A DNA stretch of 64,000 nt from Polytrichum commune. Its lineage: Eukaryota > Streptophyta > Polytrichopsida > Polytrichales > Polytrichaceae. The notes beneath the pieces were generated by a model. That model did no database searches and was not told the DNA's origin. It was given only the letters and a program-made list of their open reading frames with translations. The DNA lies in the NCBI GenBank assembly GCA_950295325.1, contig OX485807.1, positions 10,755,001 to 10,819,000 on the forward strand. Direction: 5' to 3'. How positions within the stretch are numbered: position 1 is the first letter of the stretch; the number at the start of each line of letters is the position of its first letter. This document shows, piece after piece, positions 18,671-63,982 of this stretch. The translations under genes and the position numbers were made by a program.

Positions 18671-19365
18671 AGACCCTGTGCGTTAACGCACAGGGTATGT
18701 GCGTCCAACTACAGGTCTAACAAAGTTGGACGCGAGGTTTGGGTCGGCTGACCCAAACCAGGCTCATAGTTTGGGTCGGCCGACCCAAACCAGGCTCACA
18801 GTTTGGGTTGGCCGACCCAAACCAGGCTCACAGTTTGGGTCGATCGACCCAAACTAGGCACACAATTTGGGTCGTTCGACCCAAACTAGGTAGACAGTTT
18901 GGGTCGATCGACCCAAACCATGCTCACAGTTTGGGTCGGCCGACCCAAATTGTCCGCAATTTACGCCTGATTATGCGCAATTACCCAGTCACCACGAAAG
19001 TGCAAACAAACCTTGTACTGCACCTGTACATTAGAGAGCTTGCAGCGATGAGCTCAGGTCCGATGGAGGAGAGAAAAAAAACTGAATGCTTTGGGGTTGT
19101 GGCAATTTATACTACTTGTCCCTGCAGCCATATTTAGCATGGCTCTTCGTGGCCCCGCATAGCCGCTAGAAAGTTGCCAGCGCAGACCCTGTGCGTTAAC
19201 GCACAGGGTCTACTTGCCCAACTTTGCGAAGCCTCTAGCTAAGCAAGTAGACCCTGTGCGTTAACGCACAGGGTCTGCGCTGGCAACTTTCTAGCCACTA
19301 TGACTTACCGCATACACCTTGTGCGTTAGCACATAGACCCTGTGCGTTAATGCACAGGGCCGAGA
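18671..19365. repeat. Dispersed GTTAAC palindromes in intron 1
   Basis: Near-perfect palindromes CCTGTGCGTTAACGCACAGG occur near 18675, 19188 and 19252, with a degenerate one at about 19310-19360. The 19170-19290 stretch is itself a larger inverted duplication: CGCTAGAAAGTTGCCAGCGC and GCGCTGGCAACTTTCTAGCC flank two palindromes. All lie in the 2.3-kb first intron (20765-18460) of the methyltransferase-like gene. Confidence 0.8.
18738..18950. repeat. Palindrome array, TTTGGGTCG type, 7 units
   Basis: There are seven units of about 32 bp, each carrying TTTGGGTCGNNCGACCCAAA with small changes. The central dinucleotides are GC, AT or TT, while the arms are conserved. The linkers read CCAGGCTCACAG. 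The array lies in intron 1 of the methyltransferase-like gene. The same palindrome occurs at 23842-24086 and 43886-44722. Confidence 0.9.
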
Positions 19366-19789
19366 CGTGAATTCGTAAATTTGCCAAAACTTGTAAAAAT
19401 GCTAATGGGATCCAAAAAAAAAACAAAAACATGCTATATTATCTAAATCTCCGTAGCTACAAATTCTTTTCATATTTTGTTTTGGTTTCAAATGATTTTC
19501 TCTTCTCATTCTTCTATCTATTTCCTTGTTTTGGGCCACCTCGTAAATTTTGGGTTTCGGGGCAAAAAAACATTTATGCTATTTTGTGTCATTTTCTAGC
19601 TCCTATAACGTATTGCATGAGTACTTGAGTAGTCATATTTGTCATTTCTTGCATTCTAACTTCGTTTTGAATAGTTTTTTTGCTCCTATGTTCTGAACAT
19701 CGATTTAAATTCATACAATAGATATTTGTTTTAATTTTAGGCTCTCCTAGTCGTTTTACCTCCCAACTTTTGGCCTTCCTAAATTGCTC

Positions 19790-20715
19790 TTACAAACCCT
19801 GTGCGTTAACGCACAGGGTTTTACCTCCCAACTTTGGCCTTCCTAAGTTGCGCTTACAAACCTTGTGCGTTAACGCACATGGTTTCTCCTCCCAACTTTG
19901 GGTTTCCTAAGTTGCGCTTACAAACCCTGTGCGTTAACGCACAGGGTTTCGCGTCCCAACTTTGGGCTTCCTAAATTGCGCTTATAAACCCTGTGCGTTA
20001 ACGCACATGGTTTCTTCTCCCAACTTTGGGCTTCTTTAGTTGCGCTTACAAACCCTGTGCGTTAACGCACAGGGTTTCGCCTCCCAACTTTGGGCTTCCT
20101 TAGTTGCGCTTACAAACCGTGTGCGTTAACGCACAGGGTTTCGCCTCCCAACTTTGGGCTTCCTAAGTTGCGCTTACAAACCGTGTGCGTTAACGCACAG
20201 GGTTTCGCCTCCCAACTTTGGGCTTCCTAAGTTGCGCTTACAAACCCCGTGCGTTAACGCACAGGGTTTCGCCTCCCAACTTTGGCCTTCCTAAGTTGCG
20301 CTTATAAAGCCTGTGCGTTAACGCACAGGGTTTCTCCTCCCAACTTTTGGCCTTATTAAGTTGTTCTTACAAACCCTATGCGTTAACACACAGGGTTTCT
20401 CCTCCCAACTTTGGCCTTCCTAAGTTGTTCTTATAAACCCTGTGCGTTAACGTACAGGGTTTCGCCTCCCAACTTCTCGCCTCTTAAGTTGCTCTTATAA
20501 ACCTTGTGCGTTAACTCACATGGTTTCGCCGGCCAACTTCTCGTCTCTTTAGTTGCTCTTATAAACCCTGTGCGTTCTCCTCCTGACTTGTAGCCTTCCT
20601 AAATTTCTGTTATATACCATGTGCATTAACGTATAGGATTTCTTCTCTCCAATTCATAACCTCTATAAATTGCTATTACATGACATGTGAGTGAACGTAC
20701 AAGGTTCTCCGTCCT
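19790..20715. repeat. Palindrome array, CG-TTAA-CG type, about 13 good units
   Basis: The period is about 63 bp. Each unit holds CCTGTGCGTTAACGCACAGG between TTGCGCTTACAAA and TTTCGCCTCCCAACTTTGGG. Units become increasingly degenerate towards 20715, as in an array losing copies by mutation at one edge. It sits in intron 1 of the methyltransferase-like gene, just downstream of exon 1. Confidence 0.9.
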
Positions 20716-20765
20716 AACTTACAACTTATGCACTATCAAATTATGTGAACGTTGAACTGACTTAC

Positions 20766-21047
20766 CTTTTTGTTTGTCGTCTTCTTTTAACCCGTCTTCA
20801 ATTCGGACTCTGATATACGATCGTCTACATCTTCTTTGCTCTTTGCACCTTCATCATCCTCCATCGCATCAAAATCCAGTGTCTTAACAGTTTCTTCTAC
20901 CGTACTCAATAATTTTGTTTTCCCTTCTTTTTTTGCATCATTCTTTCCCACACTTAGTCTGAACCTCTTTTTCTCGGAAGTGAAATACAAAGCTTTCCTA
21001 CGTCTTCTCTTCGGCCTCACGGGTGTTCTCTCTACATCGTCTACCAT
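20766..21047 (-). other. Exon 1 of the methyltransferase-like gene
   Basis: ATG at 21047 opens 94 codons that end in a strong donor (AAAAAG|GTAAGT at 20766/20765). An acceptor TTTGTTTTAG at 18460 rejoins the frame in phase 0 to a segment beginning DQSMDLERTTP. An in-frame TAA at 20787-20789 is best explained by CAA to TAA. Without that stop the exon would be fully open. It could instead be a separate 86-residue basic protein. Confidence 0.55.
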
Positions 21048-21552
21048 CGTTGGTATCTATGATATGTTTTCTATCAGGTACTATCATTTATTCTTCCAAT
21101 GTATCTATCTCACAAAATCCGGCGTATATTACGATCACATGTTGTAATTGGCGTTCAATGAACGAGATATTTCAACGCGTTTGTCATTATGTGTTTATTT
21201 TTGTTATATCCGCCCAAATTTTCTGACACCTACTTTGTTTTATTCATAATAATCAATAATTTATTTTTCCAACCAATCTGCGTCAGTCCACACATATATA
21301 TTTTAAATTTCTACCAATCCTTTTAGTATTTGACCCCGTTTTGTGTATATCTTGCTCGTAAATAGTCTCTGACTATTATTATATTATGTCCACTTCTGTA
21401 TTATTAGATGCTATGTATCACACGCTTTCATCTCCATCCATTATTGTGTCACACGTTTTCATTTCCATTCATTTCCTCACACAACTCTATACAAAAGCAA
21501 CATTCACCCCATATTTTTGTAATGTGTTGTTCATATGTTCTTTTGATTTTCT
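21048..21552. promoter_or_regulatory. Divergent promoter region of the transposon
   Basis: About 500 bp of AT-rich sequence separates the start of the minus-strand methyltransferase-like gene from the start of the plus-strand transposase gene. I see no firm TATA box. The arrangement implies shared control of both genes. Confidence 0.4.
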
Positions 21553-23754
21553 ATGGCTACCATTAGAGCTCATGGATCTTTTGTTCCCTTCATCTTGCCA
21601 CTCCAAGATGATGGTCATGTGAGTGTTTCAGAGGATTTACTTAGTTTGAGATTCAACCTCCAGATATGAACCATATATTTAGAGCATGAGATGTACTCTG
21701 CAGATGGAGAGGTGTATGAAACGATTTTGGTTCCAAAAAATAGAACTGATGTTGGTTTTATGTGGATCTTAGGACCTGGTTCATTTAGGGTGATAGGACT
21801 TTCTGAGTCTCAAATGCAAGCTTCAACTGTCATTTTGACAAACGAATCCGGTACATCCACAGTTCAAATTCCCTCTATCGCACCTGTTAAGGTGGAACCC
21901 CTTGATGATAGTGTGTTTGTGCTATCAGATTCAGAAGATGACATTTGTGTATCTGTTGATCTTTCAAACACATCGCCATTTCCATTTAGAAGTGTTCATT
22001 CTACTCCTTCCCAACTTCCTATACATGTAGCCAAATCCCCTTGCGGTCTTATGTACAAGAAGGTGGTTCCCCAAATCTCACCTTCTCAACGTCCTCCACT
22101 ACACCCTTCACCTTCATCTACAGGGTTGACTATGGTTGATGGCTTGAAGCTGACAAAGTCAAGAAAAAGATCAAAGTCCGATCTTACATCCATTGATTTT
22201 GACAATATAGATGTTCGTGAAGTCAAGTACTTACCATCTTCTTTTAATGGTGATGTTTTGTTTGTCTTGCCTCCTGTGTCATTCAAAGTTCCAAGTACGT
22301 ATGGTCGCTCAATGGACGGCATGGACAAGATGTGCGACGGTCACCCTTGGTGCACCACCAAAACCACGAATATCCAAAATGACTTTGGACTGTCCTTCCG
22401 GCGCTCTACTTGTGCTGGTCATCTCCAATGTCATAATGACTACTGTGATTACATGAATCGCAATGGGGGCCTCCGGAACAATACTGAATGGGCCGGTTCA
22501 ACTCCTATCCCATTTGCTGTGGGTGTTGTTCCCCCTACTAAGTCCACTGTCGAGTGTAAGGTATGTCGTTTCACACCTGTGTGCATTGCTTTGTGTAATG
22601 CTCAAATCATATACATTCACTCCACATCCGTTGGAATGTCCAGGGCTTGCATTCATCTTGGTGTACATGATCACCCTGTGGCCAATGGCACATGCCGTGA
22701 ATCATTGGACATGGCATACCAATGCGTTGCAAATGAAGTATTGAAAACACCCATAGTAAAAAATTCAGCCATAGTTATGGCGGCGAGCAAACAATTCTTG
22801 GCCGATTACCTTCTCAAATCTCCTGCAAATGTCGAAGGCCATCACTTGGTTGGTTCATCCCTAGAGGTCGTCATGGACAAATTCAGCACCCTTGCCTCTC
22901 CAAATTGTCGTAACTTTGTATCTGGATCAAAGCGTTTTTTGCGTAGTGGAATGGGAACTATGGATAGTATTATGGCGCTCAAAGACCACTCTGCTTTCAA
23001 ATTCGTCCATGGTAGTCGGTTCCCAGGGCAGTCAAAGGACAAAGTGTTTGTTTTTAAGATGTCTGTAGACCTTCCAGGTAGTGGTGTGGAGCTTGTGAAG
23101 AGGATGCAAGTCGGTGGGGATATGGAGAATTCATGGATTATGTTTGATAATGTCAAACGTTTAAAGGACTGGACGACCATGACTTGCCATGTGTACGACA
23201 GTCGATACTGTAAAGTGTTGACTATTGCGTGTTGTGACATGCAATCTGAAGATGGTGCAGCGTAAATTCTCTTTTGGGAAAATTTGAATGTTGTCATGGC
23301 AGATAATGATGTACCAAACGTAAACTTCAAAGGGTTTATGGTTGATAGTGCTCAAGCTAATTGGAATGCGGTGAGGGCGATTTACGGGGATGGTGATCCA
23401 AGTCTACCCATGGTTGCACGTGAGCGTACATGTCTTTTCCATTGGTCCGCAAGCTTGGATAAGGTGACCCAAAAGTATATCAAACCATCCTTGCAATTTC
23501 AACACAAACAAATATGCAAGGATTACAAAGACGCGAAAACAATGGACCATTGTACCATGTACCATGTGATTCGTTCTTGGTGGTTGTCATCTGGAGCTGC
23601 CTCCGAAGAAGGCATCCTTGGCCTTTCAGAGTGGTTGGGATTTTGGCACTTTCCTTACAGATAATGGGGTGACCATATGCTACTTGTAAGTACATATCAA
23701 ACTTCATTATTCAATGTAATATATCCTATGTTTTTTTTATTTTTGTCTTTCTGT

Positions 23755-24212
23755 GTTGTTCATAGGATATGACAATAAAAGAGCGTGCGGGAATGCCAAT
23801 ATGCAACCTTGCAGAGACTGTACATAACAAACAACAAACAGTTTGGGTCGTTCAACCCAAACCTTGTAGGCAGTTTGGGTTGTTCGATCCAAACCTTGTA
23901 GGCAGTTTGGGTCGTTCGACCCAAACGTGGCAGCCATTTTGGGTTGTTCGATCCAAACCTTGTAGGCAGTTTGGGTCGTTCGACCCAAACGTGGCAGCTA
24001 TTTTGGGTTGTTCGATCCAAACCTTGTAGGCAGTTTGGGTCGTTCGACCCAAACGTGGCAGCCATTTTGGGTTGAACGACCCAAACCTAGATATATAATC
24101 TATCTTATGTTTGTCTTATCCTTGTATTTGTGTGTTGTTCATAGGATATGACAATAGAAGAGCGTGCGGAAATGCCAACATGCAACCTTGCAGAGACTGT
24201 ACACAACAAATG
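23755..24212 (+). repeat. Duplicated intron-exon junction around the array
   Basis: TGTTGTTCATAGGATATGAC and the ensuing coding segment (MTIEERAEMPTCNLAETVHNK) are present twice, once before and once after the palindrome array. Both copies retain the acceptor site. Only the downstream copy continues into open coding sequence. Confidence 0.8.
23842..24086. repeat. Palindrome array in transposase intron, 8 units
   Basis: Eight units of 32-33 bp carry TTTGGGTCGTTCGACCCAAA. Intact units partly alternate with a variant TTTGGGTTGTTCGATCCAAA, giving a ~65-bp higher-order repeat. The array is flanked by a duplication of the intron 3' end and following exon start (about 23755-23835 and 24133-24212). 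Confidence 0.9.
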
Positions 24213-25442
24213 GCTCCAACAGTCCGGCAACAAGATGACTTGTTTATATGAAGCTACAGTGGACGACATGATCCGTGCCTTCATGCAAATTGCAAATTAC
24301 CGGACATGGTTGAAAGGGGGGTCTGATGGTAAAGGTCTTGATTCGGCATCCTTGAAACTCAAAGCGGCTGCCAGGTGTGGAGATCCAAAAATGTTGGCCG
24401 ATGCCATGAAGTCTTATCCAGGGGCAGAAGACGTCAACACTAGAGATTGTGCATTGGAAGGGTCAGAGCTCTTTGGTTCCACCAAACGCAAACTCAACCT
24501 ACCACCGGGTGTTAATTGTGACTCTCATTGACCCGACAAAGTGAACTATTCCATTCCTCGTCTGAACACCCGAGCAACTCGTCAACGCATAGAGGAATCG
24601 TTGAGTTCTACAATTCATGGTGTGGCTCATACTACATCCGTGTTAGAGACAGATTATCTTGCTTCCAAGTGGCACATTGCAAGATTACCACCCAACTCAG
24701 CCAAACGATGTTGGGCACTGCAGGCCATCACAGGGACTATGTGCAATGCCAAAGTCGGGACTGGGAAACATGGCACACCTACTCCAACATACAAAGGGCT
24801 CAGGAAGGAATTTCGCTCTTCCAACAATGTGGAGTATGAATTTTGGTTTTGCCTTGACGACATCAAACGTTGTGTGAGTGGCAGTAAGAAGAAATATGTG
24901 TTGGACTGGCCTATAGTACCCAACACATGGCCGGTGAAGATAGGTACCAATCTATCGCGAGAGGAGGTTTTGGCACTTGAAGATGTTGGATTTCAAGTAC
25001 AGCAGAGGGAGGCATTGTCCCCTCGTCGTAGGTTTTCAACAATCGCAACTCTCCCCATCCCTCGCTCGCATTTTTCTATGCCACCAAACCCGGACGCCCA
25101 CCCTACATTCAGGTTTGGAAAGACAGTGCGTTGTAATCCAACAGCACCGCTAGCGGATCACAAAAACAAATGGGAGAGCGCCGGGCTCATGGAGGGTTAC
25201 TATGTGGTTGGGGTCACTGCCATTCCATATCCGGGCTTTGGAGTGATAATCAACATTGTCTCCAAGCAGGATATCACCTACCATGTTACAATTGGCGACA
25301 TCCCGCATTGCACATGCCCGGATTTCACGAAAATGTCCTCTTATGCATTGGGAAAGAAAGGAAAATGGGTGTATTGTAAACATCTTTATTATGTGTTTAG
25401 ATTTTTGTGCAAGGTGGATTACGAGAGTGACAAGTTCATTCA

Positions 25443-26200
25443 TGCACCTACATATACCTATAACGAGGTCATGCGACTACTTGAACTTGCTGGTATTGTA
25501 GAGTGTGAGTAGTATTGCAAATGGTCTATTAAGTACCATATATTTGAATGTCAAAATATGACATGTTTTTGTTTGGATTTTTATAATAAAAATCAGCAAT
25601 GGGCTGGAAGTATTTCAAATGATTCAGTAACTTCATTTCTATTTAGACTACGACCCAACCGTGAGCGGTTTGATTGATTGACATGGATAAATAATAACAA
25701 GTTTCTAAAAATTAAAAATAATTGAGAAGATTCTACGCACATCCGCGTAGTAACGTCTTCTTGGTATCCGCCTATAAATTATTCCTGCTTTATCACTAGC
25801 TCAATTTGGGATAGCACCAGTCAATGTAACCAACCGGATTCGAACCCGGGTTGATACAGACCTAATACCAGTCTCTTACACAACTCGCATCCACAGGCGG
25901 ATGTCTCAAAACCTAGTAGTTACCTACATATTGACTATTTCTAATATCTAATTTCCTTTCATTTGTAGATTCTGGGCCTTAATTCAACCCGTGAGCAGTT
26001 TGAGTGGCTCACAATTATGGCACCTACATGTACGTATAATGAGGTTATGCACCTACTTGAGCTTGATGGTGTTGTGGAATGTGAGTAGTTGTGCAAGTGT
26101 TGGTTGTAACTACATGTATAAGGATGTCAATAAATGACATGTATTGGTTTGGATTATTATAATAAAAGTCAGCAATGAATTGAAAGTGTTTTAAATGATC
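25443..26200 (+). repeat. Duplicated transposase 3' end
   Basis: Codons for CAPTYTYNEVMRLLELAGIVECE-like sequence plus about 130 bp of 3' flank (25443-25640) recur at about 26020-26190 with roughly 80% similarity by eye. The intervening part holds a tRNA-like SINE. Confidence 0.7.
25700..25915 (-). mobile_element. Putative tRNA-derived SINE
   Basis: On the minus strand the sequence contains CCGGGTTCGAATCCGG, a perfect T-arm with the RNA polymerase III B box, and about 35 bp upstream a weaker A-box-like GCGAGTTGTGTAAGAG. There is no acceptor stem, so it is not a tRNA gene. The rest is non-coding. I did not find a convincing target duplication. Confidence 0.5.
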
Positions 26201-26344
26201 TATGGAAATAGGGCCCTTTCACTTGTGCTTCATTTAAAATATTGGCAATTTACAATTGAAAATATGCAATTAATTTGTCAAAATTTTGGTTGTGTACCCT
26301 AAACCCGTGTGTCTTTACTAAATTTGGAATCATTGCTCATATGT

Positions 26345-26418
26345 TACTGCTCATTGCTCATGTGTTACTGCTCACCGCTCACCGCTCACTGCTCATCGCT
26401 CATAAGATAGCTTCCCTC
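26345..26418 (-). repeat. Right terminal inverted repeat
   Basis: GCTCATTGCTCATGTGTTAC, GCTCACCGCTCACCGCTCAC and GCTCATAAGATAGCTTCCCTC are the reverse of the left end at 14430-14502. Confidence 0.75.
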
Positions 26419-26426
26419 TAATTAAT
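26419..26426. repeat. Target-site duplication of the 12-kb transposon, right
   Basis: TAATTAAT, identical to 14422-14429. Confidence 0.75.
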
Positions 26427-26439
26427 GTAGTCCACTTCT

Positions 26440-38199: not shown

Positions 38200-38204
38200 C
38201 ATTA

Positions 38205-43445: not shown

Positions 43446-43654
43446 AAATATAATGAAACACACACCTCATATTTTGTGTAGTTATTTAATAGCGGAATTA
43501 GCAAGGTCATTTGATGGTTGGGGCGACAAAGAGCCATGCTAAATATGGATTATCTATTACAAGCATGAAGCGGGAAAGTCGGTCAGAAGGTTTGAATTAA
43601 GGGTCAAATGAAATTCCGGCGGGAAAGGCATCCAACGAGGAAGGCCAAGGCGGA

Positions 43655-43775
43655 GGCGGGTAGTATAAAGTCCCAAACCCCCCGGAATTCGGTCCTTTTT
43701 TCTCATCTCCCCATTCTGAAATCATTGCAAGCTCTCTCAGTTAGAGGTGGAGTACAAGGTTTGTGTACGCCTCCG
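43655..43775 (+). promoter_or_regulatory. Candidate promoter and leader exon of DUF7869 gene 1
   Basis: AGTATAAAGTCCC near 43661 resembles a TATA box. About 95 bp downstream CAAG|GTTTGT could be the leader donor (near 43759), matched by the acceptor TGTGTGTAG at 44932 just before the start codon. Confidence 0.45.
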
Positions 43776-43885
43776 TTCATGAGTAGCTAATTAGAATAGC
43801 CATGCATGGCCTGAATTCATCAAAGTAGTTTCTATTTAGGCGGAATGGAAGTATGCCGCATTATCAGGCGTAAATTGCGGAAGAT

Positions 43886-44722: not shown

Positions 44723-44937
44723 TCATTGCCCACAGTGGGGATGTACATATTGTGATCTTCAACATACTATTGTAGGCCCCAACCTTTTCGAACCCAATGG
44801 CATAATATTCATATCAACATGTGTTACGATTGAGAATTAACAAGTGTCATTATATGATATGGATTCTGTGTTTTTATAATAGACCCTATAGCTTTTGTCA
44901 TTTTTTACAAGGTGTCGTGTTCATGTGTGTAGGCACA

Positions 44938-47900
44938 ATGTATGGGTACAGTGGAAGAGGATATTCGTTAGCTGAAGACATGGCCACTTGGCCATCTGCT
45001 TCTGAGGATGATCTAAACATTGTTGGGGAGGCTACTATGGATGACATTACAAATGAAGATCATTTGGATTTACCCTCGCCGTCTGTTCCTCACTGTCCGA
45101 TTGTAGAGTGTACATGGCTTTCAAGAGCTTCGTGGGTGAATTTGGAGGTGGTACTTCTTAATGACAGTGGAGTTGGTGTGGCAAAGGGTATTTGTCGTAA
45201 CACCCATCCACAAGATTGCATTGATGAACACCCGCTTGGCACCGAGGACGTTGGAGTTGTCATATTGGAGTCGCTCGTTCATTCCGAGGTGGATCCCACT
45301 CATAGGTTCTCCCTCCGCAGGTGGCCATTGAGGAATGTCACGATTGATGGAGTTAGCTTGCGTGAACATGAGCAACGACACATGCAAATCGAAAAAAAGC
45401 TGCAATTGAACATGCGGCCACGTAAGGATCAAAGAAAGTACGATACATTGGCTCGTCTTGCTCCGTCTGCAACTGATTGTAAACGTCAAAGGTTGCTCGG
45501 TGAGGAGTCCATTAGAGAAGTTGCCACAAAGGATTGTTGTGTGCATCGTTGTTGCCAATTGTTTCCAACGGACAAATTGAAGGCCATCCGCGAGGAAATG
45601 TGGCTTGGAGATTTCCGTCTAAGATCCACAAAAAAACTTGATGTCCATAGGGCAATACATGTGAACGGGACGGGTCGTAATGTCATCACGATTGAAAGCA
45701 TAGACATGTGTTGTAAGGCATGGTACACCATTCACGGCCTGTCGAAAGTGGACTTTTATAGACAATCTGCTTATGCCAAGGAAGGCCGCCGGTCCCGTCA
45801 CCATGGTAATGTGGGTTTAAAGAAGCCTAGGGAAGCAATAAGGCAAGCAATGGCCACTCTAGCAACCATCATTATCCCCCTTGCCGATGCATTGCCGCAC
45901 AAAACACGCACACTCACAACTGGTGAAAAGGTTGTGGAGAAAGTTCTTCCCACATGCACAAAATGGAAAGACATACTGTTGGACGTGAATGCAGTTGGCG
46001 AGAAGATTGGGTTGGAGCCAATTTCATTGTCAAAATTGAGTGCAATCAAAAAGCAAACTTTAGTGAATACATTACAAAAAAACGAGGGGACAAATTTGCT
46101 AGGTGCTCTAATTGCGAGAAGTTGAAGTGCCTTCGGGATGCACACACGATGGGTACCGAGTCATATGCGGCGCATCAATTGAACTATTTCAAGCATGTAA
46201 ACATGCAAGAGGCACACCGTAATGATTACTACACAAATAGGGCTTTGTCCATCTCCAGGCCCTTGGAGGTTCTTACGGTCATCTATGACAAAATGGACCA
46301 TGCCAAAACAACGTCCCCATGTTTTGCAAATGGTATCAAGGCCACGGATGGGTTTTTTAAGTTGCATGTATCGGTTACAGGTGAACTTCGAAACAATGTC
46401 ATGATATACCCTAAATGTTATGGTGTTTTATTCCGTGATGTACTTGACAACATGGATTCATTCAAAATGATTTAGATATACATATATACTAATCACGTTG
46501 GATTGGCATTGCAGGAATGATTGCACATGAACACGGTGATGTCAAGTTTGCTCATTATGCTCTTGATTTGTATCCAGCGGATTCAAACCACACGATAGGA
46601 TCATTTGCAAGGCTTTTACGTGATTTAGAGAAACCGCCAGCCTATTCTTCAAGATTGTTATTTGAAAACACGGGTTCAACACCTTTATATGAAGCGGTGT
46701 TGGATGGAAAAGATGTATGCTTGCATTCGTTGCCCGAGCTACCCAGTGAACCCGTGATTGCTAAGAAGTTGCCCTTTACTTTGCGTGTCCAATTGGACAA
46801 TTGTGCCAAGGACAATAAAAGTAGATATGTATTTGCATATTGGTCGTTGTTGGTTGCGAAAGGCATTTTCAAAGAGGTTTTTGTGTCCTTCCTATTGGTA
46901 GGCCACACGCACGATGATATTGATGCATCTTTTGGGCGGTGGAGCATGAAGTTGCGGGAGGAGTATTTTCCTACAATCCCATTATTGATGAAGTCGTACA
47001 TGGATTTGGAGAATGTTCCTGTCATCCCCCATATGATCGAGGAGGTGCTAGACTTCAAGGCATTTATAGAACCTTATATTCGAAGTGGAGCTCACCGATT
47101 GATCGGGCATACGAAGGCACAATAATTCCGGTTCTACATGCGTGACGATGGTGTCCCGGCCATGCAATACAAGTTGTTGTGCACGATACAAGACTAGAGC
47201 CCGCCGGAGGGTCTCCTTGTGTGGCACGTGGATGCGGATGGGAAGACTATGTTACCGGATGGAGAGCCTAGGCCTTGCAAGCCAATACCCATGAAGAATT
47301 TGGAGGATATTTTGAAAGGTATATCAGGCTTCATACAATATTGGGAGAGTTTGAAGATAGCGGATGTTGGCGGATCATGTTGGCATCATTATGGGAGTTG
47401 GATTCATTATTGGACACGTGTTCGTGCGGCCTTGGTAGACCTACACCAAGATATCCCCCATACTTTGAGGCAAGGATTTTGGCCACAAACTCGTGTCGAT
47501 GTACAAGCTATGGAGGCTTGTCTTCTGGAAAATGGAGAGATTCGAGAGGAGTTTGATGTGGACGACCATTACGTTGGGCTTGCTAGTCAACGTCCCCCAC
47601 CATCTTTCCGCATTGCAGTGGATTGTCATGAAGGTTATATGCTCATTTTGCGTCCTGGAGACAAGACATATGCAAAGCCAGTGTGGGTGGCAAGAGCTTT
47701 GTCCAAACCAAATTTTACAACTTGCAGCCCTCATTTTCGACAAATACAAGTGGAGTACTACTGACTGACAACAAGAAATGAAGATGTGATTTGGCATTAT
47801 ACAAGCTGGGATACAAACCCTAACTTTCGGTGGAAGGTGGATTCTGAGCACGGTCCATCTTAGGTAGATACAAATTCCATATTCATAGCATGGAAACCAC

Positions 47901-48001
47901 GGAAAAACCACAGTGGATCAGTGTCCATCCCTCAAAAGTACATAACTTTTGCAAAAGACAACCTTGCTCGGATTGCACAAGAACCAACCCACGTTGAATG
48001 A
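44938..48001 (+). pseudogene. DUF7869-like TE protein, copy 1 (broken)
   Basis: The start is ATG at 44938, five bases past an inferred acceptor. Exon 1 runs to 46380 and exon 2 from 46515 (GT-AG, 134-bp intron, same place as in copy 2). It contains a Cys/His stretch (KDCCVHRCCQLF), YDKMDHAK, QLDNCAKDNKSRYVF and LVGHTHDDIDASFGRWSM. The QLDN..K and GHTHDDID signature is that of DUF7869-type proteins; the acidic residues suggest a DDE-like nuclease, which is inference. Breaks are a frameshift near 46050-46070 and stops at 47123, 47195, 47762 and 47861. Aligned to copy 2, these stops replace Q, W, R and W, all by C-to-T or G-to-A changes. Full length would be about 960 residues. Confidence 0.7.
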
Positions 48002-48492
48002 GAAGTTGGTAGGATTGTGTTAGCATGATTACAGTTTAATACATAATTATAGCAATATAAATTACTCATATGTGTGCTCTTCAAAATTGGGGCAGAGTTT
48101 GGGTAGAACTTACGAATACTATATTGTTTGGAGTTGGATGAATATCCATTTACTATATTTCAAAAAAAAAATGAAGTTCATCTTATTATTATGTTTGGGA
48201 CTATATTGTCGATTGAAGAAATATGCATTTATTTTATGCACTTTGTATGTTGCAATGTCTATATTCTATAGATCATGCTAATAATAGAAATCATTTTATA
48301 TGTTTTTTGGGTGAAACTTGTTTGGAGTGCTCTACCCAATGTGTTTTTGTTGATGAAGTTGGTGTCGAGTGCTCTACCATATGTGCTTATGTCCAAACAT
48401 CATAGATTTGGGATATTAGAACATATAATATATTTGAGATTGTTGACAATATAGTTTCGGGCATCTTCATGTTGTTTGATCCATATATTAAT

Positions 48493-48532
48493 TTGAGACT
48501 AGAGAAAGTCTCAATTTAACGAATATAGTGTT
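48493..48532 (+). repeat. Shared 3' terminus of DUF7869 element 1
   Basis: TTTGAGACTAGAGAAAGTCTCAATTTAACG then AATATAGTGTT. The equivalent of copy 2 is 55283-55242 in reverse. The GAGACT/AGTCTC pair forms a small hairpin before the end. Confidence 0.65.
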
Positions 48533-55241: not shown

Positions 55242-55283
55242 AACACTATATTCGTTAATCGGAGACTTTTGAAAGTCTCAAAA
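55242..55283 (-). repeat. Shared 3' terminus of DUF7869 element 2
   Basis: Reverse of AACACTATATTCGTTAATCG with the AGACTTTTGAAAGTCT hairpin. Homologous to 48493-48532. Confidence 0.65.
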
Positions 55284-55647
55284 TAAAATATGCCCATGGT
55301 TTGGGATGCCAATATTGTGGGCATACGGAATATTGGGAACATCAAGAACATGACGATTTAAAATTTTACATGTAAAGCATATTCTTATTACTAAAAATAG
55401 AGAATTTCAATTAAAATGAAAACGTGAGCTCTTTGTGGAAAATAACAATCAACTCTAAAAAAACAATTGGTTTATGTCATTATAGAGTTTGGGGTGCACA
55501 TCCCATAAGTAAGGCTCTTATGAATTTGGATGGCACATCCCAAACGTATACAACAATGGAGTGTGACAAGTCCACTAAGTCTAATAAAAACCAAGTCTAC
55601 TAAGCGCCCATGTTTTTCGCCATTAACTCCCACCTAATATGTTATGT

Positions 55648-58600
55648 TTACACATCTCCATCTTCCGCTTCATATCCATTCTCGGCGTCATTCACCGCAG
55701 CTGCAATACGTGCCAAGTTGTCTTTGGTAAAATCTATATGTTTTTGGGGGATGGTCATTGTTTCTGTTTTGGAACCTTTGCGCGGCTTCCAAGCACAAAG
55801 TATAGTATCCGTGTTTATCCAAACTGGTGTGTACGCTGAGTCCACTGTCCACTTAAAATTCTTTTTGGTGTCCCAACCTAAATAAGTGCATAGCACGTTT
55901 TGGTCTTTAGTGCTTGGACGACAATATTCCACCTCAATTTGACGAAAGTTGGGGCTAGTTCGAACAAAATTGGGTGAAGACAATGCTTTCACCAACCAAA
56001 TTGGCTTGGGATGCTCCTCATCCCCTGCTCGTACGAGGACCAAATAACCTTCATGGCAATCAACACCTACACGAAACGACGGTGCCGGTCGATTGCAGGC
56101 AGGGCCAACGTAATGCTCGTCCATTGCGAACTCTTCACGAACGTCTCCATTGCTAAAAAACATGGTGTCGGACTCGACAACCGTTAAACGGCTTTGTGGC
56201 CAAAATCCTTGTGTTAAAGTTGTACGGGTGTCGCCACCAAGTGTCATTAGGGCCGAGCGAATGCGATCCCAATACGCAATCAAAGGTTCATGAGTATCTC
56301 TAACACGTCTAGTGATGTCCTCCTCACACAACTCTTTCCAATATTCAATGAATCCGGATATGCCTTTGATGATTTCCGGCCCATTCCTCATGGGGTCGGG
56401 TTTGCAAGGCTTTGGATCCCCATCCGGGAGCAAACATTTCCCATCATTGTCTTGACGCCATACGAGTATACCATCATCTGGGCCCCAATTAGGAGATGTG
56501 CACAAAAGCTTAAATTGCATGGCCGGGAGACCATCATCACTTATATAGAATCGGAATTGTTGTGCTTTGGTATGTCCCACCAAACGGTCCCCTCCCTTCA
56601 ACATGTATGGCTTGATGAAGGCCTTGAAATCTGGTACTTCTTCAATCATGTGCGGAATTACCGGCATATGGTCCAAATCCATATACGATTTCATAAGAAG
56701 TGGTATGGTTGGAAAATCTTCTTCATGCAACTTCATGCTCCACCGTCCGAAAGACGCATCAATGTCATCGTGTGTGTGTCCCACCATCAAGAAAGACACA
56801 AACACCTCCTTGAAGATTCCTTTCGCCACAAGCAAGGACCAAAAACAAAATACATATCGACATTTGTTGTCCTTCGCACAATTATCAAGTTGAACGTGGA
56901 GAGTTGGAGGCAAAGGTTTTGCACAAAGAGGTTCTCTGGGTGGCTCCGGCAATGACGACATACAAACCTCCTTCCCCGCAAGCAGTGCTTCGTAAAGGGG
57001 TGTCGTTCCACAACCATCAAACAATTCACGTGATGAATGTACCGGTGGCTTCTCAAGATCGCGCAAGAGTTTTGCAAATGATCCCACCGTGTGGTTAGCA
57101 TCGCCAGGGTAAAAATCCAGACCATAATGGGCATACTTAACGTCTCCATGTCCGTGGGCAATCATCCCTGGGAAAAAACAAACGATCCATGAATGACAAC
57201 AATAACAACAACAACCCTAAACGGATGTGTGAAGTTGAAACCTAACGCAAACACATCTAGTAAAATTGGATAGAATTTGAACACATATTTGTGATTTCCT
57301 ACAAACCTGTGACAGCTACGGGCAACTTGAAGAGTCCATCCGTGGCCTTTATTTTCCGTGCATAACAAGGGCATGCGGTCTTGGCGTGGTCCATTTTGTC
57401 ATGGATGATTGTTAGAACCTCTGCAGGCCTCATTATGGATAGAGCACGGTTCTTGTAGTAATCTTGACGGTGAGCCTCTTGGTTGTTGACATGTTCAATA
57501 TATTTTGCTTGGTGTCTGGAGTGGGATTCGGTGCCTATGGGGTGGGCGTCTCGAAGACCTTTGTATTTTTCACACGTCGTACACCTAGCGAACTTGTCCC
57601 CAGGTCTCTTCAAAATGTATTCAGCAAACTGTTGGTTTTTAATTACACTCAACTTGGACAAAGAAATGGGACCACATCCCGCTATGCGACCCACTTCGTT
57701 AATGTCCGTTAATATGTTCTTCCATTTTGTACCTGTGGGCAACACCATTTGTACAACTTTCTCCCCTGACGACAATGTCCTTGTCTTGTGGGGCATTGCA
57801 TCGGCCAATGGGACTATGATGGTGGAGAGTGTCGCGGAGGCTTGGAGTGTAGCCTCCCGAGGTTTCTTTGTGCCCGAATTTCCATGAAATCGTGAGCGGC
57901 GACCCAACGATGAATACTTTTGAAACCTATAAAAATCAGCCTTTGACACGGCGTGGATGGTATATCACGCGGTACAACACACATCCACATTCTCAAGTGT
58001 GACCACCTTATGCCCATGGGTGTCAATGTGCACATTTCTATGGACCTCGAGTTTCTTTGCCGATCTCATACGGAAATCGGCCAGCCACATCTCTTGACAT
58101 AGGGACTTAATTTTCTCCCGTGGGAAAAACTGGCAACATTTCCGATAGCAACAGTCTTTGGCGGACACAAGACGGATAGATTCGTCTCCCAATATGCGAT
58201 CCCGTCGACGCTCCTTATCTCCTCGAAGCACACGGTTCGAATCATATTTGCGTAGGCCTTTGCGAGGACGTATTTTGGCCAACAAAGCTAATTGTGTTTG
58301 CTTATGGCGCCGCTCATGGTCCAACAAGCTCACTCCATCATGGAGAACCCGACAAAAAGGCCATCGACGCAAGGAAAATCTCCATGTCACCGGGACCTCA
58401 AGCGGAAACAAAGAATTCAAGATGCACACACCAACATCGTTCGGACCAAGGGGGTTGGCATCCACACAATCACGGGGATCAGAGTTTCTATATATGCCAT
58501 CTGCCACAGGGATACCAATGTCATTGAGTAGGACGACATCAAGGCCAACCCATTGCTCCCTCCCGAAACCGGCACACAACGGAATGTCATCGTGGTCATC

Positions 58601-58783
58601 CCTAGAATGTAGAGATTGTTCGTGCACTTCTAAAGATTCATGGGAGGATGTATCCACAAACTCCCCCATCACGTTTGGCAGACCATTACAACCCGCCGAA
58701 GGGGAAGAAAGTTCACACTCACCATCGGAGGAGGAAGAAATTGTGGACAACTCCAATGAACTATATGCCACGGGCAGCGCCAT
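55648..58783 (-). pseudogene. DUF7869-like TE protein, copy 2 (one stop codon)
   Basis: The start is ATG at 58783, just past the acceptor GCTTAG at 58789. Exon 1 is 58783-57307 and exon 2 is 57167-55648, with a 139-bp GT-AG intron in phase. Apart from TGA at 57967-57965, where copy 1 has Trp (CCKAWYTIH), the frame is open for almost 1000 residues. Features in order are an acidic N terminus, KDCCYRKCCQFFPREK, FARCTTCEKYK (zinc-knuckle-like), IIHDKMDHAKTACPC, QLDNCAKDNKCRYVF and LMVGHTHDDIDASFGRWSM near 56750. Conservation is strongest at the QLDN and GHTHDDID blocks. I propose it is the mobilising enzyme of this element, because no other gene lies within it. This is inference. Confidence 0.7.
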
Positions 58784-59289
58784 CCAACCTAAGCAAACCA
58801 CTAATCAATGACCAAAACAAGAAGCACCGCAATGCACACAAAAGCGAAAACGAGAGCTGTGTAAATATATGGCTCAAAAAATACAAACAACTCTCGCGGC
58901 ACCGTTGGGGGACCTCACATATGAAGACGAACGTGCGTTCGAAAACAACGCCATGACAAGCAAATACTACGTGGGAGTCACACACCAATGGACAACGGCA
59001 TGCAATTGTGGTACATATTAACCGTGAAGGGTTTTGGGTCGATTTGCTAATAAAACATGGGAAGTGTTGCCAACCAACAAAGGAGAGCATACGCACATAT
59101 ATTCACGAACGCGCGGACGAGATTATCAACCCAACAAACAATGAATTGTAAAAGGGATAAGCAACGTGCATTGCTCAGGAGCACCCAAAATGCACCTGCA
59201 TCATTATCCACATGCAACAAGCATCGTAATTGAAGGGCATGTCTTTGACGGGTGTGTATCTAGGAACGACCGAACCCAAGGTAGAGCCT

Positions 59290-60142
59290 AAACTCAAGGG
59301 TGTATGTATACGAACGATCGTTCGTAAGTCCTGGCCGAAACATATGGGCGTATGCATACGAACGATCAATCATGTGTTCTAGCCCTGACCGTGTTTGTAA
59401 AAATATTGACCCATCAGAAGAAACATCTATAGCGTAGTAGTAGGAGGCATGTGCATAAATGAACGGATGTTTCTATATAATTGCAAAATAATATCAATTG
59501 ATATTTATGAACGCACGTTCGTGAATACCAGACCATCATATGTTCAGTTGGACATAACAAAGTCACGGGAGCGTAGGTGTCTTTAAGGGTTAGGAGGAAA
59601 ATATACGAACGCACGTCCGTATATCATTGAACATTTTAGCGCCCACGACTACCTATAAGTAGGTCAACGTGGAGTATTATCGAATGCTCTACTTACGAAC
59701 GCACGTTCGTAAACCACTCGCATTACACGAACTTACATGCGCCTGTATCTCCAAGGAAATATATACGAACGCACGTTCGTATATAATTGAACATTTTCAT
59801 GCCTATGACTACCTATAAGTAAATCTACGCTGAGTATGTCCAATGCTCTACTTACGAACGCACGTTCGTAAACCACTCGCATCACAACAACTTACGTGCG
59901 CCTGTATCTGGAAGGAAATATATACGAACGCACGTTCGTATATAATTGAACATTTTGTGCCTATGACTACCTGTAAGTAAATCTACGCTGAGTATGTCTA
60001 ATGCTTTACTTACGAACGCACGTTCGTAAACCACTCGCATCACATGTCTGAACCACTCATCTATACCACTCGTCTAAACTACATGTCTAAACCACTCGCA
60101 TCACATGTCGCTACCAAGTCATCTTTACGAACATGCGTTCGT
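59290..60142. repeat. Palindrome array, TTACGAACG type, about 10 units
   Basis: TTACGAACGNNCGTTCGTAA and variants occur near 59312, 59500, 59595, 59693, 59763, 59853, 59922, 60011 and 60124. Centres are mostly CA, sometimes AT. Two alternating linkers (TATATAATTGAACATTTT and AACCACTCGCATCAC) give an ~160-bp higher-order period between 59690 and 60030. It lies in the inferred leader intron of DUF7869 gene 2. Confidence 0.9.
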
Positions 60143-60309
60143 AAACGTCCGGTATTTGCGGCGGTATATGCGGGTATGTGCAACCTATTGTGTACCTGGG
60201 AGGTATAGGGTGGGCGCACAAGAAAATGGTTTGTGCTCGTTCCAGTCAGGTCTGTGGAGCGCACACTTGGTTGTGCCGCAGAAAAGAGCTCTGATGTGGG
60301 GGGAAGAGC

Positions 60310-60400
60310 TTTAAGTACCTCCCCCCTGATGGTTCAAAATCCCTTGGATGCTATTTAAAAAGCGGATTCCCGCCGCCTACTTTGACCTAACAATATGCCA
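60310..60400 (-). promoter_or_regulatory. Candidate promoter of DUF7869 gene 2
   Basis: Minus strand: GGTCAAAGTAGGCGGCGGGA, then TTTTTAAATAGC (TATA-like) near 60352, then a possible leader donor GAG|GTACTT near 60317. Copy 1 has GGTCAAATGAAATTCCGGCG and GGAA upstream of its TATA-like box. Confidence 0.4.
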
Positions 60401-60485
60401 TTCCATCCATGCGGAATAAATAAATAGCATTATGTATGGAACATGTCTTGCATGCACGCAACATATTGTAAATATGTCAATCGGT

Positions 60486-60675
60486 CGCACACCTTAGTTG
60501 TCACCAAGGTCTCACGTGAATATATGTCTATATTTATATGTATATATGAATTTCATATTGTATATTGTATTATATTATATTATATATACACATATATATA
60601 ATATTAGATTTATAATGTCTATATAGGTTTATGGTTAACATTGAATTTAAATGATTTGCAACTAAGGTGTGAAGT
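60486..60675. repeat. Short inverted repeat around a TATA-rich tract
   Basis: CACACCTTAGTTG at 60487 and CAACTAAGGTGTG at 60659 are inverted partners about 160 bp apart, enclosing a TATATTATA-rich core. This is perhaps a small MITE; no flanking duplication is visible. Confidence 0.4.
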
Positions 60676-61099
60676 CCAAGTTAATTGACGATTGATTATA
60701 CCTAATAAAGTGATGAAGGGTTTAGGGTAATACATATTCACACACACAATGAGGTAAGAGTAGCTAAAAACATGTTGTGGAAGCCCCTAAAATTGTAGGT
60801 ATCATATGATTCACATAAAAAAAATGCCCGTAATATGGTCACCAACTGCATGAATACCAATAAAAAGTCGCTTAATCCATAATGGTTTGTACTAGGTAAA
60901 TTGAGGACATTTTGAAGTAATCATACCCAATATATGTAGGTAAGGTCTTCATTCAAATGTAACACTAGGTTTGAAAATAATGAATTAAAATGGCATGATT
61001 GGAAATGATCAATCACTTTGGAACGGTGCATACGATAATGATAAGAATTGAAACCATGCCTACGTGAAGTCACACTTACAATTATTAATATCATGTGTT

Positions 61100-61345
61100 T
61101 GACGTCCTATGGGAAATAAAATTTCCTCCACCTTTTGTAAAGGTTTAGGATAGCGCAGGCTCGCCACAATATGAAATTGAGTCCTTTATCCAATAATTGT
61201 TTTTTAAAGAACCATTGAACACCTTGAAAGACATATTGTCCATGAAAAATTTATATTTTAAAACACCATATACACATGCTTGCGGGTGGATTTTTCATTT
61301 GAATCCACCCCCTACACTTGAGGCTCGCCAAACATCGGACCATAT
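61100..61345 (+). repeat. Diverged repeat shared with 62185-62400
   Basis: Both contain TTTCCTCCACCT-like, GAACCATTGAACA, AAAACACCATATACACA and GGGTGGATTTTTCAT segments in the same order, about 1.08 kb apart. Confidence 0.65.
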
Positions 61346-61484
61346 TATGAACTACAAGTTTAAATGCAATTGATCATTGGTGAAATTTAAAGTTGATGGC
61401 ACTAGTATTCGTTTGTTAGTTCAAGTCGACAACTAATTAAATGACTTGACCTCCTAAGAAGGGTTGGTAAGATAAAAAGATGTC

Positions 61485-61517
61485 GGGTTTAGGGTTTAGG
61501 GTTTGGGGTTTGGGGTT
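61485..61517 (+). repeat. Short interstitial telomere-like repeat
   Basis: GGGTTTAGGGTTTAGGG followed by TTTGGGGTTTGGGG: two plant-type TTTAGGG units then TTTGGGG variants. Confidence 0.7.
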
Positions 61518-62184
61518 AGTGTATATGGTTTGTGAAAGTTGTCTAATATGTGGTTTGCGGGCTTAGGGTTTAGATCGTTAGTGATACTTAGGACGGGTTT
61601 AGACTTGGAGTCAAGGCTCAAAAATGGGTTGGGGTGAAAGAAATCCACGCCTCTCATTGGTAGAAAGGCTAGGATTTTCCTCTTCAAGTTTACACCATGA
61701 GTTGGGGCCAATCACAAATAAATTATTTTATTCATCATGACAATGGCTTCAAGCCTTGGAAAAGAGAGCTCCCAACATTGTGGACTCTTTCCCTCTTGTT
61801 GAGGCCATTGTTAGAGCTTTTATTCGCTTATAGTAGTTTATTCTTTGAGCATTGAGTAGGAGGGGAGAAATTCTAAATTTATTATACTTTAATTATTATC
61901 CATAGAATAGTTCATGAGTACGTTGGAACCTCTCATAACCCTCTCATAATTGCAACCTCCAAATGGCCCCAACCCCACCTAAATAGGTTTACACATGAAA
62001 GCAATGAATGGAGTTAGGTTACTTTCTTATTAATGGCCTTTGGGGCCCATTTGCATGCCACATGGGACATATTGGCCTTCGTTCACAATGGCCTTGGCCC
62101 CAAGTCTAAACAGGTCCTTAGTGTACTATGCGTTCGTATTTAGAGTATCTAACACTAAATATCATATTAAGGGTGGGTCAAGCT

Positions 62185-62400
62185 AACACCTCATGAAATT
62201 AATGACATCGTATTGAAAAATGAATTTTCCCCCACCTCTTGAGGAGAATCTGATAGCCCCTCTCCACAATTCAAAATGCGTCCTTTATGTATGTAAAATT
62301 TGTTTGAGGAACCATTGAACAACTTTAAGGATGTGTGGTTCATGAAAACTCTATTTTGCAAAACACCATACACACATTGGGGTGGGTTCTTCATCGAAAA
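62185..62400 (+). repeat. Second copy of the 61100 repeat
   Basis: See 61100-61345. The copies differ by about a quarter of positions by eye. Confidence 0.6.
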
Positions 62401-62576
62401 CCTACTAAATGACATGCATTGTGTTGTACAAATTAACTGAACATACTTTTCTAAAATATGTTTACAAGGAATCCAACTGTAGAGGTATTAAGGGGATACG
62501 GAATGTAAAATTCATGTCCCCGAACTAAGCTCCCACCATTTCGTATTTCTTAATTCGTAAACCCTCATCCCTCCCT

Positions 62577-62705
62577 ATCCCCATTCCCCTCCCATCCATC
62601 CCCATCCCCATCCCCATCCCTCCCCTCCCCATTCCCTCCCCATCCCCTCCCCTCCCCCATCCCCATCCCCATCCGCATCCCCATCCCCTCCCCCATCCCA
62701 GCCCT
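62577..62705. repeat. CCCCAT / CCCCTC microsatellite
   Basis: Degenerate runs of CCATCCCCATCCCC and CCCTCCCC, with a strong strand bias. Confidence 0.9.
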
Positions 62706-62879
62706 GGCCAGTGGTTGTCAGCCACGTGGCAGCCGCCAGGAAACCCTAGCGGTGCCGGCTACCTCCCCGCGCCTCTTCCTCTCCTCCTCATTTGTCATTT
62801 GGAGCAGAGGAGGAGGGGAGAGCTTAGGTGCGGCGAAGCCCTGGCCATTTGTATAGCCGCATTTTATGTTTATTCTTGG

Positions 62880-63095
62880 CGCGCATTGTCAGAAGCTTGA
62901 GAGTAGGATCGCTTGAGAGGTTGATATTTGTAGAAATCTTGAGAAGCTTGAGAGTTTTGGAAAGCTTGAGAGGTTTAGAGTTTTAGAAAGCTTGAGAGGT
63001 TGAGTGTTTTAGAAAGCTTGAGAGTTTTAGAAAGCTTGAGAGGTTGAGTGTTGCAAAAAGCTTGAGAGCTTGAGAGTTTCAGAAAGCTTGTGAGT
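62880..63095 (+). repeat. AAGCTTGAGAG tandem repeats
   Basis: AGAAAGCTTGAGAGTTTT or AGAAAGCTTGAGAGGTTGAG units (18-22 bp) repeat about nine times. The tract lies between a GC-rich stretch with a CCCCGCGCC patch (about 62700-62830) and a splice-donor-like AAT|GTGAGTAC near 63263, so it may be an untranslated first exon. Confidence 0.7.
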
Positions 63096-63593
63096 TGTGT
63101 GTACATCAGAATATTTGTAGGATTTGTAAATAAATTCTGAAGGCTTGAGAGTGTGAGAAAGGAGCGAGGGTAGAAATTGCATTTGAAAGCGAAATCAGTG
63201 CATTTGTAAGGTTTCTGGATTTCTGAGTAGCAGGCAGCAGGTTTTGGGTTTGCAACAATTCAATGTGAGTACAGGTTTCTTTTTCAAAACACTTCTTTGC
63301 AATCTGAAATTGTTCTTTGTTGAATTCCATGTGTCATGTTTTATGCATTATGAGCTTTGTCATGTTTTGTATGAATTAGGACTTTCCCCTTCATTATGAA
63401 TTCTTAATCACTGAATCTCAATGTTGTTGTCATTACATATTTCACTTTGTGTTTCATCATTCTGATCAAGAGTTGTAGGCAAAAATCCAAGCAATGTCGA
63501 TAGCAACATTCATAAACCCATACATACGTATACGTATGTATACATATCCGTATATGTACGGAAAACATTTATTATCATACACAGACGACCACA

Positions 63594-63982
63594 TTTACGA
63601 ACGATCGTTCGTAAATGTGGCGTTTATACATCTAATACACCAAGCCCTTTACTTTACGAACGCACGTTCGTAAAATACGCACTCACCTTCTACTTTTACG
63701 AACGTGCGTTCGTAAAATACCCACTCACCTTCTACCTTTACAAACGTGCGTTCGTAAAATACCCACTCACTTTCCACCTTTACGAACGTGCGTTCGTAAA
63801 ATACCCACTCACCTTCTAATTTTCCGAACGTGCGTTCGTAAAATACGCGCTCACCTTCTACTTTTACGAACGTGCGTTCGTAATTGATTAAATAATGAAC
63901 ATCTTGTATTTGCGAACGTCCGTTCGTGAGCAAACACTGAATCACATCAATATCCTAGATTTACGAACGATCGTTCGTAACC
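63594..63982. repeat. Palindrome array, TTACGAACG type, 9 units at right edge
   Basis: Nine units of about 42-60 bp carry TTACGAACGNNCGTTCGTAA with centres AT, CA, TG or TC, and linkers AATACCCACTCACCTTCTAC. The array probably continues beyond the window. It lies about 330 bp past a donor-like site (63263). Confidence 0.9.

Follow-up and report, generated by a model that had tools for sequence, protein, structure and literature searches.

The stretch of DNA analyzed here, called the window throughout, covers 64,000 nt of the Polytrichum commune genome (C5:10755001–10819000; contig OX485807.1 of an assembly of 408 Mb in 64 contigs, seven of which measure 42–78 Mb). It holds three transposable elements (TEs) that bear arrays of short palindromes (Table 1): TE A, a DNA transposon of the Mutator-like element (MULE) type, and TE B and TE C, a short and a long element with a DUF7869 gene. 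The arrays are built from three palindromes, M1 (GTTTGGGTCG-NN-CGACCCAAAC), M2 (TTTACGAACG-NN-CGTTCGTAAA) and M3 (ACCCTGTGCG-TTAA-CGCACAGGGT), and their relation to the second gene of these elements, gene2, is the subject of this analysis. In the full copies read of both TE kinds, the transposase or DUF7869 gene is paired with a divergently oriented gene2.

Table 1. Transposable elements, their genes and their palindrome arrays, in window coordinates.
Feature	Position	Strand	Remarks
TE A, MULE-type DNA transposon	14431..26418	+	~12 kb; 9-bp target-site duplication; ~62-bp terminal inverted repeat
TE A gene 2	14994..18491	-	ParB-like DGNHR motif (by eye), then degenerate N6/N4 methyltransferase-like domain
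Single M3 palindrome CTGTGCGTTAACGCACAG	18676..18693	.	palindrome scan; isolated copy
M1 array	18737..18949	.	7 units, 32-bp period; between divergent genes of TE A
M3 array	19189..20715	.	mostly 64-bp period; between divergent genes of TE A
TE A gene 1, MULE-like transposase	21670..25512	+	C-terminal SWIM-like zinc finger; several exons
M1 array	23842..24086	.	between transposase exons of TE A
TE B, short DUF7869 copy	42837..48532	+	terminal inverted repeat AACACTATATTC, one mismatch on left
M1 array	43885..44722	.	12 units, mostly 75-bp period; upstream of TE B DUF7869 gene
DUF7869 gene of TE B	44806..47764	+	PF25273, E 1.4e-37
TE C, long DUF7869 element	55242..64000, continuing past window	-	
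DUF7869 gene of TE C	55648..58804	-	PF25273, E 2.9e-40
M2 array	59309..60145	.	upstream of TE C DUF7869 gene
M2 array	63596..63979	.	upstream of TE C gene2

The hallmark of MULEs is a target-site duplication (TSD) of 8–11 bp together with terminal inverted repeats (TIRs), and TE A has both: the TSD TAATTAATG lies on either side (14422–14430 and 26419–26427), and the TIR of the window copy comes with subterminal ATGAGCGGTGAGC repeats. A TSD of about 9 bp was found in all four MULE copies examined (window A, A2, A3, and A4). In the transposase a CxFHW and SWIM pattern was read by eye; the SWIM match itself stays below the cut-off (E 0.05), and the Pfam MULE domain gave no match in the four open reading frames (ORFs) scanned. 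At least 81 copies of this transposase were scored, 78–100% identical to that of TE A among the matches listed. The gene faces away from gene2, whose window copy shows shifts of reading frame inside its exons, and M1 and M3 arrays lie between the two. Another MULE, D, adjoins TE C past the window (L001:8298–10000 and L014, C5:10827298–10836000; L001 is the stretch directly past the window, L001:273 corresponding to about position 64273). It has its own 373-bp repeat array with a CG-TTGC-CG palindrome, and its transposase is 38–44% identical to those of the eight other MULEs compared.

Full-length DUF7869 elements measure about 16 kb (16.1–16.7 kb in the three copies with both ends found, named C2, C3, and B2) and bear the TIR AACACTATATTCG; a 4-bp duplication is readable at the ends of C3 and B2, not at those of C2. 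No gene2 was detected in the window copy TE B. In TE C the first frame of gene2 begins near 64273, further M2 copies occur in the gene2 introns, and the similarity to other copies ends at about L001:7175, short of their right TIR. Where a B or C copy has gene2, it is oriented divergently from the DUF7869 gene; between B and C the DUF7869 parts are 49–73% and the gene2 parts 26–46% identical. A downstream ORF with an NLI-interacting-factor phosphatase domain is part of the element; its identity reaches 91% in C2 and 99% in C3, against 44–45% in B1 and B2. In TE C this phosphatase-like ORF lies at L001:6243–7016 (+; PF03031, E 3.3e-16), and its product is possibly inactive, since the motif reads DLNGVL instead of DxDx. 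A stretch of about 970 bp in the same copy (L001:3784–4755, about 67784–68755 in window numbering) is absent from C2 and C3. A literature search found no papers linking DUF7869 with transposons.

An original prediction made from the sequence of the window had described six arrays of palindromes with conserved arms and variable centers and linkers. All six were found at about the places given, with some limits and some of the regularity corrected: the CGTTAACG array starts at 19189 and its units are degenerate past about 20576, while in the array at 23842–24086 good and decayed units alternate with a 64-bp higher-order period. A scan for palindromes (arms of 9, at most 1 mismatch, spacer of 0, 2, or 4) returned 210 positions in the window as opposed to 23–33 in five first-order Markov control sequences, far above chance; these positions correspond to 94 distinct centers, some without relation to the arrays. 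Two perfect AAGCACCTAT..AGGTGCTT palindromes, 35 bp apart at 37714–37770, lie outside every TE recognized.

Arm conservation was measured on copies that depart from the palindrome at no more than 5 of its 20 arm positions, a choice that biases the values upward. The mean top-base frequency in the arms is.97 for M1 (n = 98),.93 for M2 (n = 100), and.94 for M3 (n = 108), compared with.42,.38, and.63 in the 50-bp flanks. The expected variable center is borne out for M1 (.35/.62 at the two central bases) and M2 (.57/.43) and fails for M3, where TTAA is kept at.97–1.00. The periods of M1 arrays (32, 35–40, 57, 73, 75, and 78 bp) and their linkers differ while the palindrome is unchanged, and one single satellite family was rejected on this ground. 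Arms that are symmetric, constant across unrelated linkers and, in M1 and M2, separated by a free center fit a dimeric DNA-binding protein, and the palindromes are very probably symmetric DNA sites. The CpGs kept in the palindromes do not by themselves speak for selection, because the CpG ratio outside the palindromes of these elements is not low (0.61–0.87, compared with 0.51 at 27–42k of the window and 0.79 in a stretch resembling long interspersed nuclear elements).

Genome-wide, exact matches number 9731 for M1 (20-mer with NN), 4680 for M2 (18-mer with NN), and 502 for M3 (18-mer), while the reversed patterns gave 0 each. With a free N4 center the M3 count rises only to 560, so that TTAA is largely kept; an equally relaxed palindrome of the type found in MULE copy A4 occurs 217 times (control, 1). 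The predicted association with TEs was upheld, the arrays sitting in two unrelated kinds of DNA transposon, MULEs and DUF7869 elements. Four loci (L031–L034) were chosen by array alone, from array positions that no listed gene match explained, and all four show DUF7869, gene2 or transposase homology, which at L033 consists of a single 33-aa DUF7869 piece (E 2.6e-5). Sites on contig C1 were also counted by hand against the TE genes among the matches listed (81–117 per protein), without a random background: a TE gene stands no more than 10 kb from at least 95 of the 100 M2 sites listed (62 by listed matches, 33 via L033) and from at least 45 of the 50 M3 sites listed, fetched TE genes included. 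The lists of TE genes are incomplete, and sites with no TE gene nearby are therefore no evidence of independence. Long satellites independent of TE genes, which would have spoken against the original prediction, were seen neither at these four loci nor in the C1 counts.

Five of the arrays had been placed in introns, a claim upheld only in part. An intronic position is likely for the one at 23842–24086, because A3 and A4 have an array-free intron of about 120 bp there, although in TE A this array is preceded by a partial duplication of the start of the next exon. The remaining arrays could lie in promoters or 5′ introns: those at 18.7–20.7k separate a divergent gene pair, whereas the arrays at 43.9k, 59.3k, and 63.6k each precede a TE gene. 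Further introns with palindromes are found in gene2 of DUF7869 elements, both of them outside the window. The introns flanking gene2 exon c carry M1 in B1 and B2 (4 + 3 and 6 + 2) and M2 in the window C copy, C2, and C3 (1 + 1, 2 + 2, and 2 + 2 by the strict pattern), and exon c itself contains none in all five copies. The intron between exons b and c runs GT..AG with coding sequence on both sides; for the one that follows exon c, both splice sites can be read, the next exon being identified by eye without homology support (donors GTGAGT and GTAAGC, CAG acceptors).

In MULEs, gene2 combines the ParB-like DGNHR motif with a degenerate N6/N4 methyltransferase-like end (PF01555, gathering score 26.7 bits). 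Two 577-aa gene2 ORFs exceed this cut-off (L035, 32.4 bits, E 1.1e-7; L036, 29.9 bits, E 6.7e-7), and the window copy falls below it (15.5 bits, E 0.017). Searching the genome with PF01555 returned 83 matches at E values of 1 or less, at least six of which lie by position at MULE gene2 loci (C5:16865322, C4:20357736, C1:33363304, C6:42091597, contig C2:1337503, and C4:13961372). Motif order, read by eye, is IV...I, and motif IV reads DIPY, DIPD, DLPE or QFPD in five aligning copies (L035, L036, L037, A2, and A3). The catalytic consensus of N6/N4 methyltransferases is (D/N/S)PP(Y/F/W), for example DPPY, from which motif IV departs; the domain is thus probably catalytically inactive. Other searches with gene2 gave only weak methyltransferase matches in NCBIfam (best E 0.014) and only weak matches among PDB sequences, the best of them to a 'Methyltransferase' (E 0.32), and tblastn of a 577-aa ORF against 50,697 phage records gave no match. 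In TE C, gene2 has a DGQHS motif, a weak GmrSD_N match (E 0.08) and no PF01555 match, and a profile comparison of the A methyltransferase region with C exon c yielded a probability of 0.4%. Adjoining a MULE gene2, L036:2–493 holds a tandem 72-bp coding array resembling leucine-rich repeats. Strong N6_N4 methyltransferase matches on contigs C10 and C12 (E 9.6e-26 to 7.3e-13), outside the seven large contigs, are perhaps bacterial contamination.

The relation between palindrome and gene2 was followed across 20 MULE loci (window A, A2, A3, A4, D, L017–L030, and L035 with L038). The place between the two genes holds six palindrome types of the form arm-CG-N4-CG-arm, the A3 type having TG for one CG. 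M3 occupies it at 10 of the 20 loci, GGGTGGCCG-TTAA-CGGCCACCC in A4 and L026, GGGTGCCG-TTGC-CGGCACCC in D, GTTTGTGCG-CTRG-CGCACAAAC in L023 and L027 (its core also in L035), and GGGGTTTCG-GTAC-CGAAACCCC in L024. At the ten M3 loci the ParB-like exon of gene2 is about 74–100% identical to the window copy, as opposed to 36–45% at the other comparable loci without M3, L030 excepted (in L027 the exon lies outside the stretch). Transposase identity does not separate the types. L019 and L028 keep M3 at 89% transposase identity to window A (gene2 exon 77%, and 74–77% in two pieces, respectively), whereas A4, at 88%, has a gene2 exon only 39% identical and a different palindrome, and L026, at 90%, likewise lacks M3. 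In A4 and L026, compared with L019 and L028, the motif thus changes with the second protein while the transposase stays alike. Conversely, A4 and D are only 41% identical in the transposase but 61% in the gene2 exon, and no other of the 15 pairs compared has palindromes as similar as theirs. At the DNA level, the ends and transposase half of A4 align with A at 72–94% (812 bp at the right end, 94%; 189 bp at the left, 80%), while gene2 and the array do not align; the ends, the expected target of the transposase, thus did not switch along with the palindrome. In a forward test, locus C1:9662150, picked by its methyltransferase domain, held five copies of the L023-type core and a divergent transposase (one of one); the stretch was lengthened once, as its first 7 kb ended just before the expected place, and the other strong PF01555 locus, C4:44111740, of which 2.5 kb was read, stood outside the test. 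Judged by these comparisons, palindrome type follows gene2, not the transposase, in the MULE lineages compared. M1 behaves differently. At least three copies of the M1 family occur in the inter-gene zone of eight close A copies (window A, A2, L017, L018, L020–L022, and L029), and no family of this size in those of A3, A4, D, L019, L023–L028, and L030. This restriction, together with the lack of M1 in the transposase intron of A3 and A4, makes M1 look like an addition in one MULE sublineage.

The best explanation builds on the symmetry of the sites, their arm conservation, TE association and position, all of them observed, and on the observation that site type is linked to the gene2 lineage and not to transposase or TIRs. 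On this reading, the palindromes clustered in an array would be bound by a symmetric (dimeric) protein of defined sequence specificity, encoded by the element's own gene2. The protein would recognize a pair of inverted half-sites with CG at their inner ends, the spacing between them being 4 bp in MULEs and 2 bp in DUF7869 elements. Sites would collect mostly in the divergent promoter region and in introns, coding sequence being hardly able to hold them. Binding would keep the genes of the element expressed in the face of host silencing, in the manner of VANC and the VANDAL transposons, or activate transcription, and joint change of gene2 and site would turn related elements into separate self-recognizing units. 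As a whole, this explanation is judged slightly more probable than not; the gene2 protein is probably the binder, and anti-silencing as the outcome, argued from analogy, seems possible rather than probable. That the palindrome changes along with the fast-changing gene2 suggests a DNA-recognition switch supplied by the elements themselves, which might serve to escape silencing.

Recognition of the sites by a host transcription factor or silencing protein could account for M1 being common to two unrelated TE kinds. This appears unlikely, since eight palindrome types were seen that, in the loci read, each stay with their own gene2 lineage (M1 excepted), which would call for several host factors.

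TE proteins commonly bind repeat arrays, and palindromes and transposase occur in the same elements, as would be expected if the transposase itself bound the arrays like the subterminal repeats of other DNA transposons. Such internal transposase sites are improbable given that the arrays are not terminal, that A4 has different palindromes despite keeping its transposase and its ends with subterminal repeats, and that MULE A and element B share M1 while their transposase-type proteins show no similarity in tblastn.

A role in RNA, with intronic hairpins steering splicing or feeding small-RNA production, draws on the stable hairpins with a 4-nt loop formed by all four palindromes tested (−8.7 to −20.4 kcal/mol) and on the palindromes that start 5–8 nt past the 5′ splice site of a gene2 intron in B1, C2, and window C. 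Yet the inner G and C of M1 and M2, which would be loop bases, are conserved at.98–1.00, and palindromes also lie between genes. Substitutions are not decisive: C>T, which makes a wobble pair, exceeds G>A in M1 (19:9), M3 (48:27), and M4 (7:2), copies that are not independent, whereas in M2 G>A, which would break a hairpin of the plus strand, is as common (5:5). This role, too, has little probability. Plain tandem-repeat growth and gene conversion without function, the palindromes being products of replication slippage or cruciforms, would explain the varying copy number and period of the arrays and the homogeneity of the D array (n = 8; flanks.96, arms.97), nearly matched by M6 (n = 5), but is hardly to be expected where each of M1, M2, and M3 stays the same among arrays whose linkers differ, the two arms remain symmetric from one type to the next, and the place of the array is conserved.

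Several observations weigh against sites bound by the gene2 protein. As gene2 adjoins the array, inheritance of both as one block would give the same linkage, and the roles of the pair in binding, methylation and expression are themselves predicted. Across the six lineages, palindrome and gene2 similarity are not significantly correlated (rho 0.14, p 0.30 by permutation). D and L024, which rank second in palindrome similarity, have a gene2 identity of just 38%, and TGTGCG is common to A and L023 although their gene2 identity is 41%. A3 and L025 have an imperfect AGTCTTG-GAAC-CGAGACT, about one per 360-bp unit, and no array was found at the inter-gene place of L030, though its ParB-like exon is 79% identical to that of the window. 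The ParB-like assignment is a motif read by eye, and the Pfam scan of gene2 exons from window A, L017, L024, L026, and C gave no ParBc match. Profiles of the A and C ParB-like exons did not match either (hhalign probability about 1%), so that homology of the A and C gene2 is unproven. Two M2 copies (L001:5219 and 5613) lie inside an open frame of TE C, and a restriction to introns is not strictly true if this frame is coding. M1, finally, is also present in MULEs with a gene2 that shows no detectable likeness to the one in B. Because M1 is the palindrome of B throughout, M1-bearing MULEs may tap the B factor in trans.

Combined, these readings would amount to a new class of TE self-recognition, in which a fusion of a dead N6/N4 methyltransferase with a ParB-like part in MULEs, and a ParB-like protein in DUF7869 elements, reads an evolving palindrome, could sense by binding whether the CpG innermost in each half-site is methylated, and, spreading outward from the clusters, maintains the activity of the element. 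Some MULEs would then have taken up M1 from the unrelated DUF7869 elements and tap the factor of the latter in trans. This wider proposal is tentative and, as a whole, doubtful. If true, sequence-specific self-recognition by transposons also arose from a protein stock other than VANC, and did so within one genome in two kinds of transposon. With eight site types seen, the pairs of protein and site would form a natural series for studying change of DNA-binding specificity and could yield targeted tools for plant epigenome work. A literature search, mostly outside subscription papers, did not turn up any description of palindrome arrays that accompany ParB/methyltransferase-like proteins in TEs.

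Elsewhere in the window, 3069–9799 resembles a retrotransposon without long terminal repeats (reverse transcriptase PF00078, E 2e-28; RNase H, E 1.8e-15; successive open frames), and a PORR gene and a DUF26-type (Stress-antifung) ORF are also present.

Among known systems, ParB binds palindromic centromere sites, parS. The elements described here resemble it in their clustered palindromic sites and the DGNHR/DGQHS motif of gene2, read by eye, and differ in that the gene2 exons scanned have no match to the ParB hidden Markov model. With beta-class N6/N4 DNA methyltransferases (PF01555) they share the domain found above cut-off in two gene2 ORFs, whereas motif IV is not DPPY. Fungal DNA transposons carry TET/JBP dioxygenases and likewise place a DNA-modification-type protein on several unrelated transposon kinds; the enzyme family is another one, and the part of that report available describes no linked array of palindromic sites (PMC12730594).

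The closest parallel is VANC, an established case of a protein that is encoded by a TE and acts through clusters of motifs in noncoding DNA, with VANC21 of VANDAL21 (Hiun) and VANC6 of VANDAL6 as Arabidopsis anti-silencing systems (PMC5735166; see also PMC10398659). VANC proteins carry DUF1985/DUF287; neither domain was found in the gene2 pieces scanned with Pfam, and membership of gene2 in the VANC family was rejected. The motifs differ as well: those of VANC21 (YAGTATTAY) stand in one orientation and are not described as palindromes in the text available (PMC5735166), where the word 'palindromic' does not occur, whereas those studied here are palindromic with an inner CG in each half and also occur in DUF7869 elements, and their anti-silencing function is proposed by analogy. 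The VANC-like analogy suggested by the original prediction is supported in that clustered motifs lie in noncoding parts of the encoding TE, the two M2 copies in an open frame excepted. The switch of motif type with gene2, seen in the lineage comparisons above, is an addition of the present analysis. As far as the accessible text goes, VANDALs are likewise MuDR/MULE-type transposons in which the transposase is conserved while another protein diverges, their short motifs form tandem clusters in introns, intergenic and upstream regions, and related elements bear different motifs (PMC5735166). Hosaka et al. found the VANC6 motif in the unrelated TE AT9TSD1 (PMC5735166), much as M1 is shared here by a MULE and a DUF7869 element.

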